From: Sediminibacterium sp.
Lineage (GTDB): Bacteria; Bacteroidota; Bacteroidia; B-17B0; Aurantibacillaceae
Length of the DNA stretch: 64,000 nucleotides
Reading direction: 5' to 3'
NCBI GenBank assembly: GCA_030054095.1
Contig: JASGCO010000004.1
Location: 129,114 to 193,113 of the forward strand
In this document: positions 55,551 through 64,000 of the stretch, piece by piece
Layout: each line of letters opens with the position of its first letter
How positions within the stretch are numbered: the first letter of the stretch is position 1
The notes under the pieces: model-generated
Told to the model about the DNA's origin: nothing
Database searches by the model: none
The model's input: only the letters and a program-made list of their open reading frames with translations
Made by a program: the position numbers and the translations under genes

Positions 55551-57116
55551 TTAAAACTGGAAATAAATAAACGGCTGCAACTCCCCGCTTCTGAACTGAT
55601 ACGCTATTACAAATAACACAAACGCTACAAGCACCATCACCGGCCAGGCCAATGCACTAAACCGTTGCCTGTACATTTCTTTATAACGCTCCGGAACCCA
55701 GTGAATAGCATAACCAATAATCAACACCCATACGACCTGCTGATAGCCCGCCAATACTTTAAAACACAGATCCAAACTAAAATGATTCCACAGGCGGTCA
55801 AAAATCTGACCTACTGTTTCCATACTATCGCTTCTGAAAAAAATACGCGTAAAACTGATAAACGTTAAGGTCACCAGTACAAACCCTATCTTTACCGGCC
55901 ATTCCACCTCCTTTTTAAACGGCGATACTTTTAACCAGATTTTATGCAACACAATACCTAACCCGTTTAATCCGCCCCAGATAATAAACAACCAGCTACT
56001 GCCATGCCACAAACCACCCAACAACATAGTTACCATAATATTAACGTTCGTGTGCACATAATTTCTTACCGACACTACATACCGCATCAGTAAGGCCATC
56101 CCGGCCGCCAGCACCAACAACCATACCAGCAAAAACAACTTCCCGCTCAACAACACCAGAAACACCGCCAGAACACTTAAACTCACGTACGATCCTATCG
56201 TTCCCTTTTTGTTTCCACCCAATGGAATATACAGGTAATCCTGCAACCAGCTCGATAACGAAATGTGCCAGCGCTTCCAGAATTCGCTGGTGCTTTGCGC
56301 TTTATACGGACTCTTAAAATTTGTTTTTAACCGGAAACCCAGCAGCAAGGCAATACCAATAGCCATATCGGTATAACCGCTAAAATCCATATAAATCTGA
56401 AGCGAATAGCCAAAAATACCCAGCGTTAGCTCAAACCCCGTAAAATAGCCCGGATTATCAAACATACGGTCAATCAGATTAACCGCCAGATAATCTGCCA
56501 TAATTTTTTTCAGATACCCGTTCAGTATCCAGAAAATAGCCATACCAAATTCTGTACGACTTAACTGATACGGTAAGCGTAGCTGATATAAAAACTCATG
56601 TGCCTTAACAATAGGACCCGCCACCAGATGCGGAAAAAAACACACAAAGAATCCGTAATCCAGCACATTGCGTTCCGGCTCCACCCGCCGGCGGTACACA
56701 TCAATGGTATAAGACAAAGACTGAAACGTAAAAAACGAAATTCCGATGGGTAAAATAAGTTGATCCACACGAAACCCCGTATGAAACATGGCGTTGGAAA
56801 AAACAGAAAAATGATTCACATACTCAAAAGAAGTACCAAACAAGCTATTAATACTATTAGTAATAAACAACGCATATTTAAAATAACTCAGCAAAAAAAG
56901 ATTGAGCAAAACGCTTGCGGTCAGGTACAATTTACGTTTACGTTCATCACTGGTCTGGTGCATCAGATGCGCCCAGGTAAAGTCTGACAAAATGGTAAAC
57001 AGTAACAGAAGAATAAATACGCCACCCGTTTTATAATAAAAAAACAAACTCACCGCAAACAGATAAATGTTTCGCAAGGCCTGTTTTTTATACACAAAAC
57101 CATACACGCCCAACAC
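55551..57116 (-). CDS. MBOAT-family O-acyltransferase (AlgI-like)
   Basis: 521 residues from GTG 57116, but the frame stays open and protein-like for 26 more codons up to a CTG at 57194 (...L-T-F-T-D-L-Y-F-W-I-F-F-A-V-V), which looks like the missing first helix of the family; no ATG, GTG or TTG exists there. About ten membrane helices. The MBOAT core has F-Q-S-L-S-Y-T-I-D-V-Y-R, E-F-W-K-R-W-H-I-S-L-S-S-W-L-Q-D-Y-L-Y-I-P-L-G-G, and the catalytic His in L-G-G-L-W-H-G-S-S-W. It transfers acyl groups across the membrane to glycans. The two SGNH genes upstream overlap or closely precede it, as in alginate- and PatA-type O-acetylation systems. Confidence 0.9.
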   Translation of the reverse strand: MLGVYGFVYKKQALRNIYLFAVSLFFYYKTGGVFILLLLFTILSDFTWAHLMHQTSDERKRKLYLTASVLLNLFLLSYFKYALFITNSINSLFGTSFEYVNHFSVFSNAMFHTGFRVDQLILPIGISFFTFQSLSYTIDVYRRRVEPERNVLDYGFFVCFFPHLVAGPIVKAHEFLYQLRLPYQLSRTEFGMAIFWILNGYLKKIMADYLAVNLIDRMFDNPGYFTGFELTLGIFGYSLQIYMDFSGYTDMAIGIALLLGFRLKTNFKSPYKAQSTSEFWKRWHISLSSWLQDYLYIPLGGNKKGTIGSYVSLSVLAVFLVLLSGKLFLLVWLLVLAAGMALLMRYVVSVRNYVHTNVNIMVTMLLGGLWHGSSWLFIIWGGLNGLGIVLHKIWLKVSPFKKEVEWPVKIGFVLVTLTFISFTRIFFRSDSMETVGQIFDRLWNHFSLDLCFKVLAGYQQVVWVLIIGYAIHWVPERYKEMYRQRFSALAWPVMVLVAFVLFVIAYQFRSGELQPFIYFQF

Positions 57117-57195
57117 AACGGCAAAAAAGATCCAGAAATATAAATCTGTAAACGTTAAGGGCTTGTTACCCGACAGATCAAAAATATGTAACAGT

Positions 57196-58410
57196 TTAGC
57201 GATGCGGTTTAAGTTGTTGCTGACGGTTATAACTTTGCATAAATGCCTCGTACATCAGTTGTCCCAGGTACCTGTACCCTGCCCCACTAAAATGCACCCG
57301 GTCGCGTTTGGCATATCCGGCTTTTATCCATTTATTAATTGAACGATAGCCCCCCATCACTTTAAACACATCCCAAACTGCTACGTTATGTTTAGCCCCC
57401 AACTCAAAAAAGGCTTGCTGCGCCAGAATGGTTCGCTTATTGGGCGTTTTACGTTTCACATAATTATCGGTAGTAGTTGTCAGCAAAATGGCTATATCCG
57501 GATTCGCCCGTTTTAATTTAGCAATAAGCGTATCATAATTAGCCTTAAACTCTTCCTTGCTAAACTCTTTCGCCTGCACATCGTTCACCCCTAACGAAAT
57601 AATGGCCATGTCCGGCACCAATGAGTGTAATTGCTGATCAAACAAATTACACTTCAGGTAACTGGAACTGGAAGCCCCATTTACACCCAAACCGGCGCAA
57701 TAAAATCCGGGCTCTGTATTTTCGATACTGAAACCAAACAGCGTAAAATCCTTTTGCAGGGTATCTTTTCTAACAATTTCAATCTGTACCGAATCTACAA
57801 AATGCTCAAAGCCATAATAACTGAATCCCTTATCCGGAAAATCCTGACCTGCTGTTTCCACCCCCTCCTGTTTTACCAATTGCCACTTAAACGATGCGTT
57901 AAAATTATGATACATCTTCAGCATGTTAAACTTACGACACACACTCCGGTCCGTTATACGAATCGTTACACGCACCAAACTATCGTTGGTACTGGCCGAC
58001 ATACCATTAACTCCCAATGGCAGACAATAGTCCTTTTGTACGGCCCTGCACTTTTTCCACGCTCCGCCCGAACTAAAGTCAACATACGGCTGACCATTAG
58101 TGCGCGCAATAGCATAAGGAAAGGCAAAATAACCGCCTCCCTTTGTTTTAAAAGTAGTTTGTAACAACGATAAAAATTCATTGGTCCATATACCCGCCTG
58201 TACATGCGATCCTCCAAAATGCGCCACTCTTACTGGCCTGGCCTCCTTGCCCTGCAAGGCTTTGCACTTATCAAAAAGCTGAGTCCAACAGGTACTATCG
58301 GCGTAATACAAAAACCGGTTAGCCTCCATATCCGCTAAACCCTTTTGGGCACTCACCCGAAAAAAGCCAAACTGCAACAGAACGAATATGAACAAAACCA
58401 AACGCCGCAT
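57196..58410 (-). CDS. SGNH/GDSL-family periplasmic protein (O-acetylation partner), copy 2
   Basis: 404 residues with a signal peptide (L-V-L-F-I-F-V-L-L-Q-F-G-F-F-R-V-S-A-Q). An SGNH-like pattern: R-V-A-H-F-G-G-S-H-V-Q-A-G (block I region, here G-G-S-H), a mid Asn in I-I-S-L-G-V-N-D-V-Q-A, and a C-terminal D-R-V-H-F-S-G-A-G-Y (Asp/His). Such proteins transfer or remove acetyl groups on polysaccharides. It overlaps the upstream SGNH gene by one base (TAATG) and is followed by the MBOAT gene. Confidence 0.85.
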   Translation of the reverse strand: MRRLVLFIFVLLQFGFFRVSAQKGLADMEANRFLYYADSTCWTQLFDKCKALQGKEARPVRVAHFGGSHVQAGIWTNEFLSLLQTTFKTKGGGYFAFPYAIARTNGQPYVDFSSGGAWKKCRAVQKDYCLPLGVNGMSASTNDSLVRVTIRITDRSVCRKFNMLKMYHNFNASFKWQLVKQEGVETAGQDFPDKGFSYYGFEHFVDSVQIEIVRKDTLQKDFTLFGFSIENTEPGFYCAGLGVNGASSSSYLKCNLFDQQLHSLVPDMAIISLGVNDVQAKEFSKEEFKANYDTLIAKLKRANPDIAILLTTTTDNYVKRKTPNKRTILAQQAFFELGAKHNVAVWDVFKVMGGYRSINKWIKAGYAKRDRVHFSGAGYRYLGQLMYEAFMQSYNRQQQLKPHR

Positions 58411-59837
58411 TACTTCTTTTTTAGATACGCATTATAATCGTTAATTAAAGCGGAATACAACAAGGTTGCTATTTTACGGGCTCCCTGTGGGCTAAAATGA
58501 ATATAATCGGAGGCCGCCAGTTTTTGATCTACCCAACTCACCATACTGTTTTTACCTCCCATGCAATCGTACATGTCAAAAAACGCGCAATTACTGTCAA
58601 ACGCTGCTTGTTTAATCGCGTCACGTAAAGGCTCCAGCATAGGATAGGTAACATATTCCGTTTCTTTTTTAATACTCATATCCGCCGGCCCAATAACCAA
58701 TATACTTGCCTGAGGCGCTAATCGTTTTACTATTGCAATCTGTCCGCGTATGTAATCGCCAAAATTCTTTGCCATTGCTTCATCCTTTATTCCCGGTAAC
58801 GTATTACCGCCAAATTGCAGAATAATACATTTCACATTCAAATGATCGTAAAACTGTTTTAACTGTCCATCACTAATCAAATGAAAAAACGTACCTGAAC
58901 TGCCCCGCAACGGAATATTATCCAACATTACGCCGCCCTGCCCTTCTAAGGATAAGGCATAAAAATCCGGGCTGTCTTTTCCCTTGAAAATGAATTTATG
59001 TTGCCCACTCCCCGGTACTACAGAATATTCCCGTATATTAAAATTTCCACCAGCATTCAAGCTATCCGCGCTATTTAACGCTACCCCATCATAAAATTCG
59101 CACCAGGTTTTGGACTGAGCCCCCCCATAAAATAACTTCACCTTAGAATAACTCCCCACCAAAGGGCCTCCACCTTTTGTAGTGGTTACCTGCAACACAG
59201 CTTCTGTTACAGCCAATGTATCCGTCGTCTTCCTGTAAGGTGCAAATCGCGTAAAACTTGCCAGTACACCATAATTTTTGTGCGTTACCCGCTTATCTTT
59301 AGATGTGTAAGTGGCATACCGGTCCCACGAAGCACCGGTGGCGGATAATTTATTACTGATTGTAGCCGACAAAGGCATTAATGACATCAGACCTGGCCCC
59401 TTCCCGCCAAATTGCTGCTGAAGTTTCTGGCGCAGGTAATCGCTGATACGATCCGCTTCAATCTGGCTGTCGCCATAATGCAGAATACGCACCCCTCCAC
59501 CCGCTGGTAATGCGCTTAAAGACGCGTAAAATGATTGTAAACACGATTGATTCTTATACTGAATGGAAAGATTCAGTTTAACCGAGTCGGCAGGCGCTTT
59601 ACTTGTAGCTGTATCCACAGACGTTACTCCCGCTGAATCTAACTGATTTGCCAGATTTAAAATGGCACTAATATCCTTTTTTGGTTCCGGTACAGCAGAC
59701 AACTCCGCTAGTGCCGGAAATTTAATACCTGTACTGTTAAGCGACAACAAATAATTATTACCTGATAAAAATGCAGCGCCGCCAATAACTGAAAACACGC
59801 TTCCGATAAATGCAAGAGTATGCCAGGGCTTAATCAT
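58410..59837 (-). CDS. SGNH/GDSL-family protein (O-acetylation partner), copy 1
   Basis: 475 residues from the ATG at 59837; a TTG one codon upstream is not needed. An N-terminal membrane anchor (A-F-I-G-S-V-F-S-V-I-G-G-A-A-F-L), then an about 80-residue low-complexity linker, then the SGNH core: I-L-H-Y-G-D-S-Q-I-E-A-D-R-I (Ser of block I), I-L-Q-F-G-G-N (block III Asn), and D-Y-I-H-F-S-P-Q-G-A (Asp/His). Two related SGNH genes in tandem plus MBOAT suggests one acyl-transfer pathway. A TATTTTTG lies only 5 nt before the ATG, so the true promoter is unclear. Confidence 0.86.
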   Translation of the reverse strand: MIKPWHTLAFIGSVFSVIGGAAFLSGNNYLLSLNSTGIKFPALAELSAVPEPKKDISAILNLANQLDSAGVTSVDTATSKAPADSVKLNLSIQYKNQSCLQSFYASLSALPAGGGVRILHYGDSQIEADRISDYLRQKLQQQFGGKGPGLMSLMPLSATISNKLSATGASWDRYATYTSKDKRVTHKNYGVLASFTRFAPYRKTTDTLAVTEAVLQVTTTKGGGPLVGSYSKVKLFYGGAQSKTWCEFYDGVALNSADSLNAGGNFNIREYSVVPGSGQHKFIFKGKDSPDFYALSLEGQGGVMLDNIPLRGSSGTFFHLISDGQLKQFYDHLNVKCIILQFGGNTLPGIKDEAMAKNFGDYIRGQIAIVKRLAPQASILVIGPADMSIKKETEYVTYPMLEPLRDAIKQAAFDSNCAFFDMYDCMGGKNSMVSWVDQKLAASDYIHFSPQGARKIATLLYSALINDYNAYLKKK

Positions 59838-59924
59838 CAACCAAAAATAAGGGTATAGTTTTTTGAAAAACGGAATGAAAGGTTGGAGTTAATAACAGAG
59901 TTTATTAACAGCATTTTTTTTGAA

Positions 59925-59956
59925 TTTGGTGGCGCGGTTTTATATCCCTATATTTG
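59925..59956 (+). promoter_or_regulatory. Promoter of the cobalamin-riboswitch operon
   Basis: TTTG (59925-59928), 20 nt, TATATTTG (59949-59956): a strong Bacteroidota promoter placed just before the riboswitch, so the transcript begins near 59963. Confidence 0.75.
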
Positions 59957-59959
59957 CCC

Positions 59960-60135
59960 CGCATTTGGTTCTTTACACATTGTAAAAGATTAAAAGGGAA
60001 TGATGTGAAAATCATCAACAGTACCCGCTGCTGTAATTCTCGTTGGATACTTAACCATTCTGTTGCCACTGAATTTAATTCGGGAAGGCGGTTAAGAAGA
60101 GAAAAGTCAGAAGACCTGCCATTGCAAAACGTTTG
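59960..60135 (+). promoter_or_regulatory. Cobalamin (adenosylcobalamin-type) riboswitch
   Basis: The conserved elements are in order: ggttctttaca (P1/P2 side), aaaagggaa, gtgaaaatc, cagtacccgctgctgtaa, tgccact, gggaaggc, gaagagaaaagtc, and the B12 box agtcagaagacctgcc at 60105-60120. The 60121-60200 stretch would form the expression platform. It lies directly upstream of a btuB-like receptor, so B12 should shut down the operon. Remaining bases 60136-60251 show no other feature. Confidence 0.93.
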
Positions 60136-60251
60136 TAGCTTTCGGGAAGAAAAGCCAGCAAAATACAGTAATGTTTTTGTAAGCCCGTATTGGTGCAAAT
60201 GATTGTTCTTTACTAAGGAATAATTATTTGAAAAGAGAAAAAAAAATAAAA

Positions 60252-62186
60252 ATGAATGGTGCATCAGGCATAGCCTCCTGGGTTATCGTACTTGTATGTA
60301 TAAGTTCTTTCTCTCTAAGAGCCGGAGATTCCCTCAGTATTCGTAAACTGCAAACCGTTGAGGTAAGCACCTCACGCTTGCTATGGAGTCAACTGGGAAA
60401 ACGCGTTATAAAATTTGATTCGCTTATTTTACCACATTACCAGTATCAATCCCTTTCAGATATTCTCAGCACACAATCACCCGTATTTATTAAAAGCTAT
60501 GGGCCAGGTGCACTGGCAAGCAGTAGTCTTAGAGGCGGCAGCGCTTCGCAAACTGCCATACTCTGGAATGGGTTTAACATTAATCACCCCATGTTAGGGC
60601 AAAGCGATTTCAGTCAGATTCCGGTTTTTTTCTTTGACGCGGTAGAAATTGAAATGGGGAGTGCTCCCGCTCTTCATGGCAGCGGCGTAATTAACGGCAG
60701 CATACAACTTAGTAACACCCAACGGTTTCAGAATAGCCTTAAAACCACTTTACAAATTGGATCAGGCAGTTTTGGAATGCGGAAAACCGGAGGCAGCATT
60801 CATTACAGCACCTACCGTTTCAGTTCAACTACCCGTTTGTTTTATCAGCAGAATCAAAATAATTTCCGGTTTTTAAACGATAGTGGCAAAACCGAAACAC
60901 GCACTCACAATTCCTTTGATACCAAAGGAGCCTTGCAGGATTTTAGCTGGCTGATAAACACCAAAAACAAATTAGACGTATCATTTTGGTATAATCAGTT
61001 CGACCGGCAATTACCCAAGCCTCCCGGAAATAAAAGCGAATCAAAAGCTTCTCAGCAAGATAAGAATTTCAGAAGCAGTATCAACTGGACGTATTTTACC
61101 TCGCGCACACGCGTAAACCTACGGCAAGGTATTTTTAGTGACGCGTTAAATTATACCGATTCATTAGCCGGTATTTTTTCAAAAAGCCGTTGCCTCAGTT
61201 CTGTCTCAGAAGTGGAAGCAAACACACAGTTTACCCAATGGTTCCATTTCTTTATCGGCGGGCAATTTTTATTACAAAATGCCGAAAACAGCAATTACGG
61301 CGCACGTCACCAATCGCCAAAACGCGCGGCGCTGGTAGGTGGATTTCAGTTAAATACCCCTAATAAAAAATACCTCTTCAGTTCCAGCATCCGTCAGGAA
61401 TATAGCAGCCTGTTACCAGTTCCTATTACCGGACACATTTCTTTAGAAGCTCATCCGCATAGTACACTGCATTTAAAATGGAACGCGGCACGCGTGTACC
61501 GTTTACCAACTTTAAATGACTGGTACTGGCAACCCGGAGGCAACCCAAACTTAAAACCAGAACAAGGGTACAGTACAGATGGGAGCCTTATTTTCCAATT
61601 ACATCATTCCGCAATTTCGTTTCGTTTTACCGGGAGTCTGTTTTATAAGAACATCAACAACTGGATCATCTGGTTACCCAAAAACACCTATACCAGTCCC
61701 GATAACCTGCTGAATGTAAAAAGCCGCGGCGGAGAAACACAAACGGAATTAGGCTACCGTAAAAAATCGTTTTATGTGCAATTAGCTATTCAAACCACTT
61801 ATGTTTTATCAACAGTAGAAAACAGTTACCTTAAAGAAGATGAAGCCATTGGAAAACAATTAATTTATACACCCCGCTATACCGGCAACGGCAACCTGAG
61901 TATCGGATACAAAAAAGCCTCGTTGTTACTTAATCACAACTACACCGGTTACCGCTTTAACAACAGCGACAATAGCACCTGGTTAATGCCTTATCACGTC
62001 AGTTCTTTAAAACTCCGCTATACTCAGCATTTCAACCGTATCGAACTCACTGTTTACGGCGCCCTGAACAATCTGTTTAATTCCGATTACGAAATTATTC
62101 AGAATTACCCGGTACCGCTTCGAAATTATGAAGCGGGACTTACCATTCACTATGTAAAATCAATTAATAAAAATAAATATGAATAA
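60252..62186 (+). CDS. btuB: TonB-dependent vitamin B12 receptor (BtuB-like)
   Basis: 644 residues from the ATG at 60252; a TTG at 60228 would add eight charged residues before the signal peptide (S-W-V-I-V-L-V-C-I-S-S-F-S-L-R-A). The plug domain follows (L-S-D-I-L-S-T-Q-S-P-V-F-I-K-S-Y-G-P-G; S-L-R-G-G-S-A-S-Q-T-A-I-L-W-N-G), then a 22-strand-type barrel with R-L-P-T-L-N-D-W-Y-W-Q-P-G-G-N-P-N-L-K-P-E-Q-G, typical of TonB-dependent receptors, and a C-terminal barrel strand. B12 is the inferred ligand because of the riboswitch and downstream genes. It overlaps the next gene by 8 bp. Confidence 0.92.
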   Translation: MNGASGIASWVIVLVCISSFSLRAGDSLSIRKLQTVEVSTSRLLWSQLGKRVIKFDSLILPHYQYQSLSDILSTQSPVFIKSYGPGALASSSLRGGSASQTAILWNGFNINHPMLGQSDFSQIPVFFFDAVEIEMGSAPALHGSGVINGSIQLSNTQRFQNSLKTTLQIGSGSFGMRKTGGSIHYSTYRFSSTTRLFYQQNQNNFRFLNDSGKTETRTHNSFDTKGALQDFSWLINTKNKLDVSFWYNQFDRQLPKPPGNKSESKASQQDKNFRSSINWTYFTSRTRVNLRQGIFSDALNYTDSLAGIFSKSRCLSSVSEVEANTQFTQWFHFFIGGQFLLQNAENSNYGARHQSPKRAALVGGFQLNTPNKKYLFSSSIRQEYSSLLPVPITGHISLEAHPHSTLHLKWNAARVYRLPTLNDWYWQPGGNPNLKPEQGYSTDGSLIFQLHHSAISFRFTGSLFYKNINNWIIWLPKNTYTSPDNLLNVKSRGGETQTELGYRKKSFYVQLAIQTTYVLSTVENSYLKEDEAIGKQLIYTPRYTGNGNLSIGYKKASLLLNHNYTGYRFNNSDNSTWLMPYHVSSLKLRYTQHFNRIELTVYGALNNLFNSDYEIIQNYPVPLRNYEAGLTIHYVKSINKNKYE

Positions 62187-63141
62187 AACAATTACTCTAC
62201 TCGCACTAAGTGCTCTTATCAGTGTTTCCGTAAGCGCACAAACCACCGTGGCCGATTTCGAAAATCTGTCGCTACCAACCAACACATTTTATCTGAGCAC
62301 TTCCGGAGCCGACTGGCAAACCGCCAATGCTGAGTTCAGATACGACTACAATACCAGTTTCAATTACTGGAGCGGAGGCTATGCTTACACTAATAAAAAA
62401 GATTCGAGTACAGCAGGCTACACAAATCTTTACGGTTGTAAAGCACTAAACGGGTTCAACAATTCAAACTATTACGTAGTTGCTAAGCCCGGTGCATTTA
62501 TCAAATTGAAAGCGCCTGCTAACGGTGTAAGTGGGTTTTACGTTACCAACTCCACGTATGCTTATAAATCCATGAAAAATGGGGATCAGTTTGCGAAAAA
62601 ATTCGGAGGAGCTACGGGCAATGATCCTGATTACTTTAAGTTAACCGTAAAAGGATATCTGGGTGGTGCCATGAAAACAGACAGTGTGGAATTTTATCTG
62701 GCCGATTTCCGTAATAGTAACAACAATTTAGATTATATCATTGACAACTGGCAATGGGTAAACACGTCTTCCTTAAATCAGGTTGATAGCATTACCTTTA
62801 TTTTGCGTTCCAGTGATGTAGGGCAATTCGGCATGAACACACCTGCGTTCTTTTGCCTGGACAATTTTACCACTATTTCGAATGCGATTGGCTTAACTGA
62901 AATAAGTGCCATTAACACCAAACTTTTATTATACCCTAACCCGGCGCAACACGCGTTTAATGTGAGCGCGGGCGAATCGTCTGTGTTAAAAATAACAGAT
63001 CTGAACGGTCGTGTACTAATAGAACGTGAGCTCGCTGAAGGTGTTCATACTATTGAAATAAACGAATTACCTGCCGGAGCATACATTGTTAGCCTTACTT
63101 CAGATAGCAGTCACAGCATTAATCGCCTGATTAAAAATTAA
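62179..63141 (+). CDS. DUF4465 protein with T9SS sorting tail (putative BtuH-like corrinoid binder)
   Basis: 320 residues. The signal peptide (L-L-A-L-S-A-L-I-S-V-S-V-S-A-Q) is followed by a DUF4465-type domain: F-E-N-L-S-L, W-S-G-G-Y-A-Y-T-N-K-K-D, Y-K-S-M-K-N-G-D, F-A-K-K-F-G-G, and a late L-D-N-F-T. The last 75 residues are a T9SS type A sorting domain: L-Y-P-N-P-A-Q-H-A-F-N-V, I-T-D-L-N-G-R-V-L and L-P-A-G-A-Y-I-V-S-L. Relatives encoded in gut-Bacteroides B12 operons are surface-anchored cobamide binders (recalled, not checked). Its place behind btuB under a cobalamin riboswitch supports the role. Confidence 0.85.
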   Translation: MNKTITLLALSALISVSVSAQTTVADFENLSLPTNTFYLSTSGADWQTANAEFRYDYNTSFNYWSGGYAYTNKKDSSTAGYTNLYGCKALNGFNNSNYYVVAKPGAFIKLKAPANGVSGFYVTNSTYAYKSMKNGDQFAKKFGGATGNDPDYFKLTVKGYLGGAMKTDSVEFYLADFRNSNNNLDYIIDNWQWVNTSSLNQVDSITFILRSSDVGQFGMNTPAFFCLDNFTTISNAIGLTEISAINTKLLLYPNPAQHAFNVSAGESSVLKITDLNGRVLIERELAEGVHTIEINELPAGAYIVSLTSDSSHSINRLIKN

Positions 63142-63145
63142 TACC

Positions 63146-64000
63146 ATGATACATTACCGTTTGGTAAAATACAGTTCCGTTATTTTGGGCTTTATCCTTT
63201 ACGCTTGTGTAAAGGATAAGCCCAATCCTGTTACAAAAACCAATGTTGTGTTAAGCAGCAACGAAAAAGTTTTCGTCATTAACGAAGGACCTTTCAATAC
63301 CGGGAATGGTTCTATTTCGCTTTATGATCCCATCAGTAACAATGTAGTGGAAGATGTATTCTATGAACAAAATGCTCAAAAACTGGGAAACATCGTTCAG
63401 AGTATGTCTGTTGTTAACGGACAGTATTGTATTGTTGTAAACAATTCGAATAAAATTGTATTCTGTAACAAAGACTTTAAAAAAACAGCGCAAATCACTG
63501 GTTTTCATTCTCCCCGGTATGTGCTTCCGGTAAGCAATAAAAAAGGCTATGTTACCGATTTGTATGCCAATGCTATTTCCATTATTGATTTTAATAGCCT
63601 TTCTAAAACAGGGAGTATTCCCTGCAAAGGGAAAACCGAAAAAATTATTTCACTCTACAACAAAGCTTTTGTCACCAATACGGACAAAGAATACGTTTAT
63701 ATCATCAATACCATTACCGACCAGATTACCGACAGTGTAAATGTAGGATTAAATGCTTATGGTCTAGAAGTTGATAAAAACGACGATATATGGATACTTT
63801 CCAACGGTAAAAAAAGTGCGGGTATTCCCGGAAAACTCACGCGTTTCGACGCACTCACGCACACCGTCAAAACCAGTTTCACCTTTAGTTCTCAGGACAG
63901 CCCCGGGCATTTACACATCAATACAACCAAAGATTCGCTGTATTACATAAATACCCACGTTTACCGGCTAAGTATCAACGATGGCGCACTGCCTTCGTCG
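63146..64000 (+). CDS. BtuG-like beta-propeller lipoprotein (partial, C-terminus off window)
   Basis: 285 codons, open to the window end. The lipobox I-L-Y-A-C-V-K-D (Cys about residue 21) predicts an outer-membrane lipoprotein. The rest is a YncE/NHL-like propeller: repeated V-F-V-I-N-E-G-P, S-M-S-V-V-N-G-Q-Y, R-Y-V-L-P-V-S-N, G-Y-V-T-D-L-Y-A-N-A-I-S-I-I-D, A-F-V-T-N-T-D-K-E-Y-V-Y-I-I-N. In Bacteroides, BtuG is such a seven-bladed surface propeller that hands B12 to BtuB. It starts 5 bp after the DUF4465 gene, hence the same riboswitch operon. Confidence 0.86.
   Translation, partial: MIHYRLVKYSSVILGFILYACVKDKPNPVTKTNVVLSSNEKVFVINEGPFNTGNGSISLYDPISNNVVEDVFYEQNAQKLGNIVQSMSVVNGQYCIVVNNSNKIVFCNKDFKKTAQITGFHSPRYVLPVSNKKGYVTDLYANAISIIDFNSLSKTGSIPCKGKTEKIISLYNKAFVTNTDKEYVYIINTITDQITDSVNVGLNAYGLEVDKNDDIWILSNGKKSAGIPGKLTRFDALTHTVKTSFTFSSQDSPGHLHINTTKDSLYYINTHVYRLSINDGALPSS

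Follow-up and report, generated by a model that had tools for sequence, protein, structure and literature searches.

The window, the whole 64,000-nucleotide stretch that was analysed, spanned positions 129114-193113 of contig C3 of a 4.63-Mb genome, and a B12 operon occupied its right end on the forward strand. The features, all on the forward strand, were a Bacteroidota-type promoter found by its pattern (TTTG-N20-TANNTTTG; 59925..59956), a cobalamin riboswitch aptamer (RF00174; 59948..60137) abutted by the -7 box of the promoter, a btuB-type TonB-dependent transporter gene (60228..62186), a btuJ-like gene encoding a 320-aa DUF4465 protein with a T9SS type A sorting domain (62179..63141), and a gene for a btuG-like DUF5074 beta-propeller lipoprotein (63146..64000), which ran past the window end and encoded 346 aa when complete. 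The btuB and DUF4465 genes overlapped by 8 nt and a 4-nt gap separated the DUF4465 gene from the propeller gene, so that the arrangement is as in an operon. The aptamer covered the full model (1-189) at 103.8 bits (E 6.9e-25; gathering score 31.5 bits) and was the single Rfam match within the 64-kb window. With promoter, riboswitch, BtuB, DUF4465 protein and BtuG-type lipoprotein all in place, the sequence-only reading of a riboswitch-controlled B12 uptake operon held.

The promoter pattern alone was not significant in the window (three matches, against 3.44 expected by chance). The promoter call holds because the -7 box sits at the start of the aptamer across the host order: TANNTTTG began exactly at the first aptamer base or one base to either side of it in 70 of the 116 riboswitches with usable flanks, and the chance of TANNTTTG anywhere in a random 115-nt stretch was 7%. 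An MBOAT-like acyltransferase gene (recognised by eye) and two GDSL/SGNH hydrolase genes lay in a row adjoining the operon on the reverse strand (55551-59840). Genes resembling porU2-porV2 of the T9SS (L004:5312-11480, reverse strand) were convergent to the operon; this adjacency was rejected as a meaningful link, the same neighbours being present at no other locus of the order that was read.

The btuB-type gene encoded 652 aa from its TTG start, and an in-frame ATG at 60252 appeared by eye to be the likelier start. The transporter carried the plug domain PF07715 and scored 99 bits with TIGR01779, below the cut-off of 600; its best PDB matches were Bacteroides BtuB chains (8bmx, 4.9e-54; 8p98, 2.1e-53). 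The complete btuG-like protein scored 79 bits with PF16819 (DUF5074), and the part inside the window matched BtuG chains (8p97, 9.8e-41). Its lipobox was LYAC, with VKDKP following it. Across the order a lipobox was present in 60 of 62 BtuG proteins and a T9SS tail in none. The motif C-V-K-D-K-P after the lipobox was common to the BtuG lipoproteins of the order (exact in 38 of 60) and is possibly an export signal of the host order. Compared with C-X-K-(D/E)2, described as a lipoprotein export signal in the available part of PMC5080379, its Lys and first acid fit and its second acid does not. As in the Bacteroides BtuB-BtuG systems (8p97, 8p98, 8bmx), a single riboswitch operon encoded both a transporter and a lipoprotein propeller lid; the locus differed from them in the T9SS-tagged btuJ gene between btuB and btuG and, at 19 of 73 loci of this kind, in the addition of a second T9SS protein.

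The DUF4465 protein contained an N-terminal signal peptide region recognised by eye (residues 1-20; 62179..62238), the DUF4465 domain of the BtuJ-type, B12-binding family (residues 60-230; 62356..62868) and a C-terminal T9SS sorting domain, or Por_Secre_tail (residues 251-318; 62929..63132). The protein scored 157.1 bits with PF14717 (cut-off 25), and its tail scored 43.3 bits with PF18962 (cut-off 27) and 41.6 bits with TIGR04183 (cut-off 23). The first Cys was residue 87; there was consequently no lipobox and the protein cannot be a lipoprotein, which agrees with the earlier proposal that a T9SS tag stands in place of a lipid anchor. Like T9SS type A cargo proteins, it carried the sorting domain above curated cut-offs, but it differs from them in being a predicted protein of vitamin capture whose gene lies behind a riboswitch.

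A structure model of the DUF4465 domain, built with 26 relatives, had a pLDDT of 90.8 and presented the augmented beta-jellyroll fold of BtuJ1. Its best PDB match was the BtuJ1-cyanocobalamin structure 9qpm (Z 27.5, rmsd 1.7 over 204 residues, 35% identity), followed by 9fct and 9hmu; the first unrelated chain had a Z of 9.0. DUF4465 is the BtuJ family, and the domain match together with the modelled fold assigns the window protein to it. Four of five pocket residues of BtuJ1, as named in the accessible text of PMC12751083, had identical counterparts in the window protein (Tyr97, Tyr146, Asn241 and Thr242, corresponding to Y81, Y127, N220 and T221). The fifth, Tyr245, was Phe224, the last residue of the HI-loop motif NTPAF (residues 220-224; 62836..62850), in which the Asn and Thr were kept. 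The window protein thus resembled BtuJ1 and BtuJ2 of Bacteroides thetaiotaomicron (DUF4465, IPR027828) in fold, in these four residues and in sharing an operon behind a riboswitch with btuB and a gene of the btuG type, and differed from them in the sorting domain that replaces the lipobox and in the Tyr245 to Phe change. With Coraliomargarita D5EK51 (9HMU) and the other DUF4465 proteins of PMC13398666 it shared the domain family and the fold (Z 26.0); those proteins come from different host groups, and T9SS is absent from that paper's discussion.

The sequence-only reading had likened the DUF4465 protein to BtuH and had named the lack of any relation to BtuH-type binders as grounds for giving up the idea. 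No such relation was found between the DUF4465 and BtuH profiles (hhalign E 0.24, probability 0.3%), and the DUF4465 domain was rejected as a BtuH relative. BtuH was nevertheless the wrong yardstick, because DUF4465 proteins themselves have been shown to bind B12. Such binding has been published for DUF4465/BtuJ proteins (PMC13398666 and, in the part available, PMC12751083), with eight of eight proteins reported as binders in PMC13398666, Fluviicola F2I9N3 among them.

Tyr245 is conserved in 97% of the family according to PMC13398666 and is described as a hallmark, or universal, in the portion of PMC12751083 that was at hand; the published figure of 97% itself allows exceptions. At this position 59 of the 74 BtuJ-type (J) domains from the host order had Phe and the other 15 had Tyr. 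The other T9SS-tailed domains had Phe in 19 and Tyr in 13 of 32, a count inflated by three loci that duplicate order genomes (L191, L213, L227) and to which L230 and L238 contribute two domains each. All five lipobox domains had Tyr and none had Phe, the five of 34 proteins without PF18962 being taken, from tail length, as the lipobox proteins. Phe was therefore present in 78 of 106 T9SS-tailed and 0 of 5 lipobox domains (Fisher p 0.0019, uncorrected for kinship).

DUF4465 was found in 80 of 87 genomes of the host order and in 11 of 395 genomes of an even phylum sample that included the source genome. At 69 of 84 DUF4465 places of the order, RF00174 preceded the gene on its own strand by no more than 5 kb, a count that leaves out the G402 row, which was below its cut-off; no riboswitch was found within that range and strand at the remaining 15 places. 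The distance from riboswitch to DUF4465 was mostly 2.1-2.3 kb, approximately the length of btuB. Gene order was BtuB-J-BtuG in 40 of the 73 loci read and BtuB-J-T9H-BtuG in 19, T9H being the second T9SS protein. The remaining loci were partial or variant, including one with two J genes and several that stopped at a contig end. J proteins were read at 74 of the 84 places, and 72 carried the sorting domain; this tally is partly circular because 26 of the 29 Pfam-confirmed tails used to train the tail model came from the host order. The two missed by the model were L071, which has a tail but runs on to the contig end, and L116, which scored 10 bits. The scheme of BtuB, T9SS-tagged J and BtuG is a rule across the order and no one-off. 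Because BtuG has a lipobox and J has a T9SS tail within one operon, lid and scavenger appear to use different export roads. The proposal that B12 capture is joined here to a different export route is supported to this extent at the level of sequence. Tandem DUF4465 domains were observed in single T9SS-tagged proteins at L230:8561-10282 and L238:2902-4680.

Outside the order, the Bacteroides-like family of G238 had DUF4465 in 29 of 61 genomes. Among its 28 complete DUF4465 proteins, the same tail model found a sorting domain in none, and 22 had a lipobox. DUF4465 domains also lay within very long frames of 1845-2486 aa in a Bacteroides-like family (G510:C19, G515:C1, G519:C100). Two genomes of another family, G245 and G324, contained T9SS-tail proteins, yet their J proteins had a lipobox; the idea that a genome with T9SS implies a T9SS-tagged J was accordingly rejected, and T9SS alone is not enough to settle the type of anchor. 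In a quick tree built from 86 domains, with five long rows and 25 J domains of the order and without L109-L110, 53 of 54 T9SS-tailed domains fell to one side of a single branch. The label required two changes on this tree, in which 'lipo' denoted a short tail with the lipobox unchecked. The topology suits a single old switch of anchor, in either direction.

The source genome encoded the T9SS translocon SprA (SprA_N, 540 bits) as well as porU2- and porV2-like genes. B12-binding domains matched above cut-off at nine places, and the biosynthesis marker CbiC had no match in the genome, a pattern that fits an organism which uses B12 but has to scavenge it.

The genome contained two cobalamin riboswitches. 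The second lay at C3:63187-63370, approximately 126 kb from the first and approximately 66 kb outside the window, and preceded a short Cys-rich gene and then the gene for the 327-aa T9SS-tagged protein T9H (L005:9827-10807 on contig C3 of the source genome, G000; reverse strand). The intervening Cys-rich gene was of the CWC/DUF5522 type (L005:10804-11190, reverse strand) and was also seen at L142 and L143; at L151 and L171, CWC and T9H formed one open frame. Sixty-one riboswitches of the order lay away from a DUF4465 gene, with T9H downstream of 38, btuB downstream of 12 and neither downstream of 11. T9H was present in 79 of 87 genomes of the order. The strict tail rule was passed by 55 of 60 T9H proteins in the order set and by 70 of 80 in the named set, and nearly all the others scored above 15 bits and ended a few residues early. 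The 80 named T9H records were labelled Flavobacteriales, Bacteroidales, Chitinophagales, Cytophagales, Chlorobiota and others, and 42 of the 80 loci had J, BtuB or BtuG no more than 6 kb away in the same orientation. A phylum search with the T9H profile A1 hit 287 of 390 genomes, which is no count of the family because most of the matches listed covered the sorting domain alone; nine of those listed covered most of the profile. J and T9H were fused at L251:4315-6093 and L257:5946-7607, and each fusion protein ended in one tail region only (by eye).

Pfam accepted no domain in T9H other than the T9SS tail, and phmmer with the T9H protein against the PDB returned nothing. A structure model (from L186, 56 rows) had a pLDDT of 95.5. 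Against the whole PDB its top two chains were BtuH2 (7biz), and BtuG1 with its H domain (8blw) came fourth. VIA-align gave Z 12.9 for 7biz and Z 11.4 for 8blw (residues 392-660), against 10.5 for the best unrelated chain, a modest margin. The BtuH profile found two solved BtuH domains in the PDB, the same 7biz and 8blw. By profile, T9H aligned with BtuH over 37 columns only (E 6.5e-4, probability 28%), and the control of T9H against DUF4465 gave nothing (E 0.42). Of the T9H profiles, A1 matched 7biz at E 0.012 and A3 did not find BtuH2. Among the BtuH2 contacts Gln333, Asn399, His476, Tyr510, Trp511 and Trp577, the aligned part included only Asn399, which contacts the phosphate of B12 according to the available text of PMC8941943; it aligned with an Asn invariant in all 56 T9H rows. 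T9H has a BtuH-like predicted fold. In this predicted fold it comes closest, by VIA-align, to BtuH2 and the BtuG1 H domain, from which it differs in having 19-22% identity, no lipobox and a T9SS tail. The link to BtuH that had been proposed for the window's DUF4465 protein thus failed for that protein, but a BtuH-like partner sits under the second riboswitch.

In gut Bacteroides, B12 is scavenged by surface proteins, and the helpers that have been described are lipoproteins. For the host order we predict, and consider it likely, that scavengers of the BtuJ and BtuH types leave the cell through the T9SS, whereas BtuG keeps its lipid anchor. When B12 is low, the riboswitch would presumably permit expression of btuB, btuJ and btuG. 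BtuB and BtuG would act as an outer-membrane pump with a lipid-anchored lid, as in Bacteroides. J and T9H would be exported by the T9SS, probably to the surface, and would catch cobamides outside the cell, the T9SS-tagged BtuH-fold protein being supplied to the same purpose from the second riboswitch. B12 may then be handed over to BtuG. J and T9H may share the fate of Porphyromonas cargo, which according to abstracts on T9SS anchoring is stripped of its tail and attached to A-LPS, or they may be released. The parts of this scheme computed here are the anatomy of the locus, the site of regulation, the fold, most pocket residues, the sorting domain, the conservation across the order and the translocon gene. 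Counting against it is the hallmark Tyr245, which is Phe in the window protein and in 59 of the 74 J domains of the order. The lipobox J proteins of G245 and G324, and the 15 J places at which the riboswitch was not found upstream, also weigh against it. We know of no member of the T9SS-tagged DUF4465 clade that has been assayed for B12 binding.

That Phe lends itself to another reading, in which members of the T9SS-tagged clade no longer bind the original ligand, or bind a different one: another corrinoid, for instance a cobamide that is incomplete or carries another base, or some other nutrient. The skew of Phe towards T9SS-tailed domains favours this reading, but the remaining named contacts are kept, a cobalamin riboswitch still heads the operon, to which btuB and btuG still belong, and a Phe could still pack on the corrin ring; we regard this reading as unlikely. 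Less likely still, and in our view highly improbable, is that the DUF4465 protein is periplasmic and its C-terminal domain a sorting signal that does not work. In the family paper of 2026 (PMC13398666), members that are not lipoproteins are described as 'bearing periplasmic targeting signals', but the words T9SS, type IX and sorting are absent from it. Against a silent tail also stand the PF18962 and TIGR04183 scores above curated cut-offs, the retention of the tail in nearly all relatives read, SprA in the genome, and the two J-T9H fusions, which retain one C-terminal tail region.

Beyond the order, T9SS-carrying Bacteroidota may possess a general extracellular layer of B12 capture, in which BtuJ- and BtuH-type domains, sometimes two per chain, would be exported by the T9SS under cobalamin riboswitches and held on LPS or released as 'cobalophores', apart from the lipid-anchored BtuBG pump. 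T9H would then be a B12-binding family of environmental Bacteroidota that is absent from the literature searched. We advance this only tentatively, at clearly less than an even chance. It competes with a plain exchange of anchors, by which BtuJ arrives at the same place by another route and works like a lipoprotein, the T9SS adding nothing new to B12 capture; this exchange would leave the main explanation of T9SS export untouched. Operon, fold and partners are all the same, and the position of all but one of the T9SS-tailed domains in the tree on one side of one branch is as from one old change, both of which favour the exchange. It accounts less well for the BtuG of the same operon, which retains its lipid anchor so that the two routes are kept apart, and for the pocket, which differs as well (Tyr to Phe). 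We consider a plain exchange a serious possibility, somewhat short of even.

It was already known that DUF4465 proteins bind B12 and that btuB, btuG and btuJ occur together in riboswitch operons; what is new is the predicted export by the T9SS, together with the T9H family and the Phe variant. T9SS delivery had no mention in the available text of the DUF4465/BtuJ family papers, and a link between T9SS and B12 capture was not found in the open-licence literature searched; further sources drawn on, each available in part, were PMC10404256, PMC9723704 and PMC12578637. The analysis names T9H as a second candidate family of B12 binders and calls into question the Tyr245 rule for the DUF4465 family. 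If T9SS export of these proteins by the host order is the true reading, the non-lipoprotein DUF4465 members of Bacteroidota would reach the outside of the cell through a different machine, and this would change the site at which B12 is captured and also whether that B12 can be shared or stolen.
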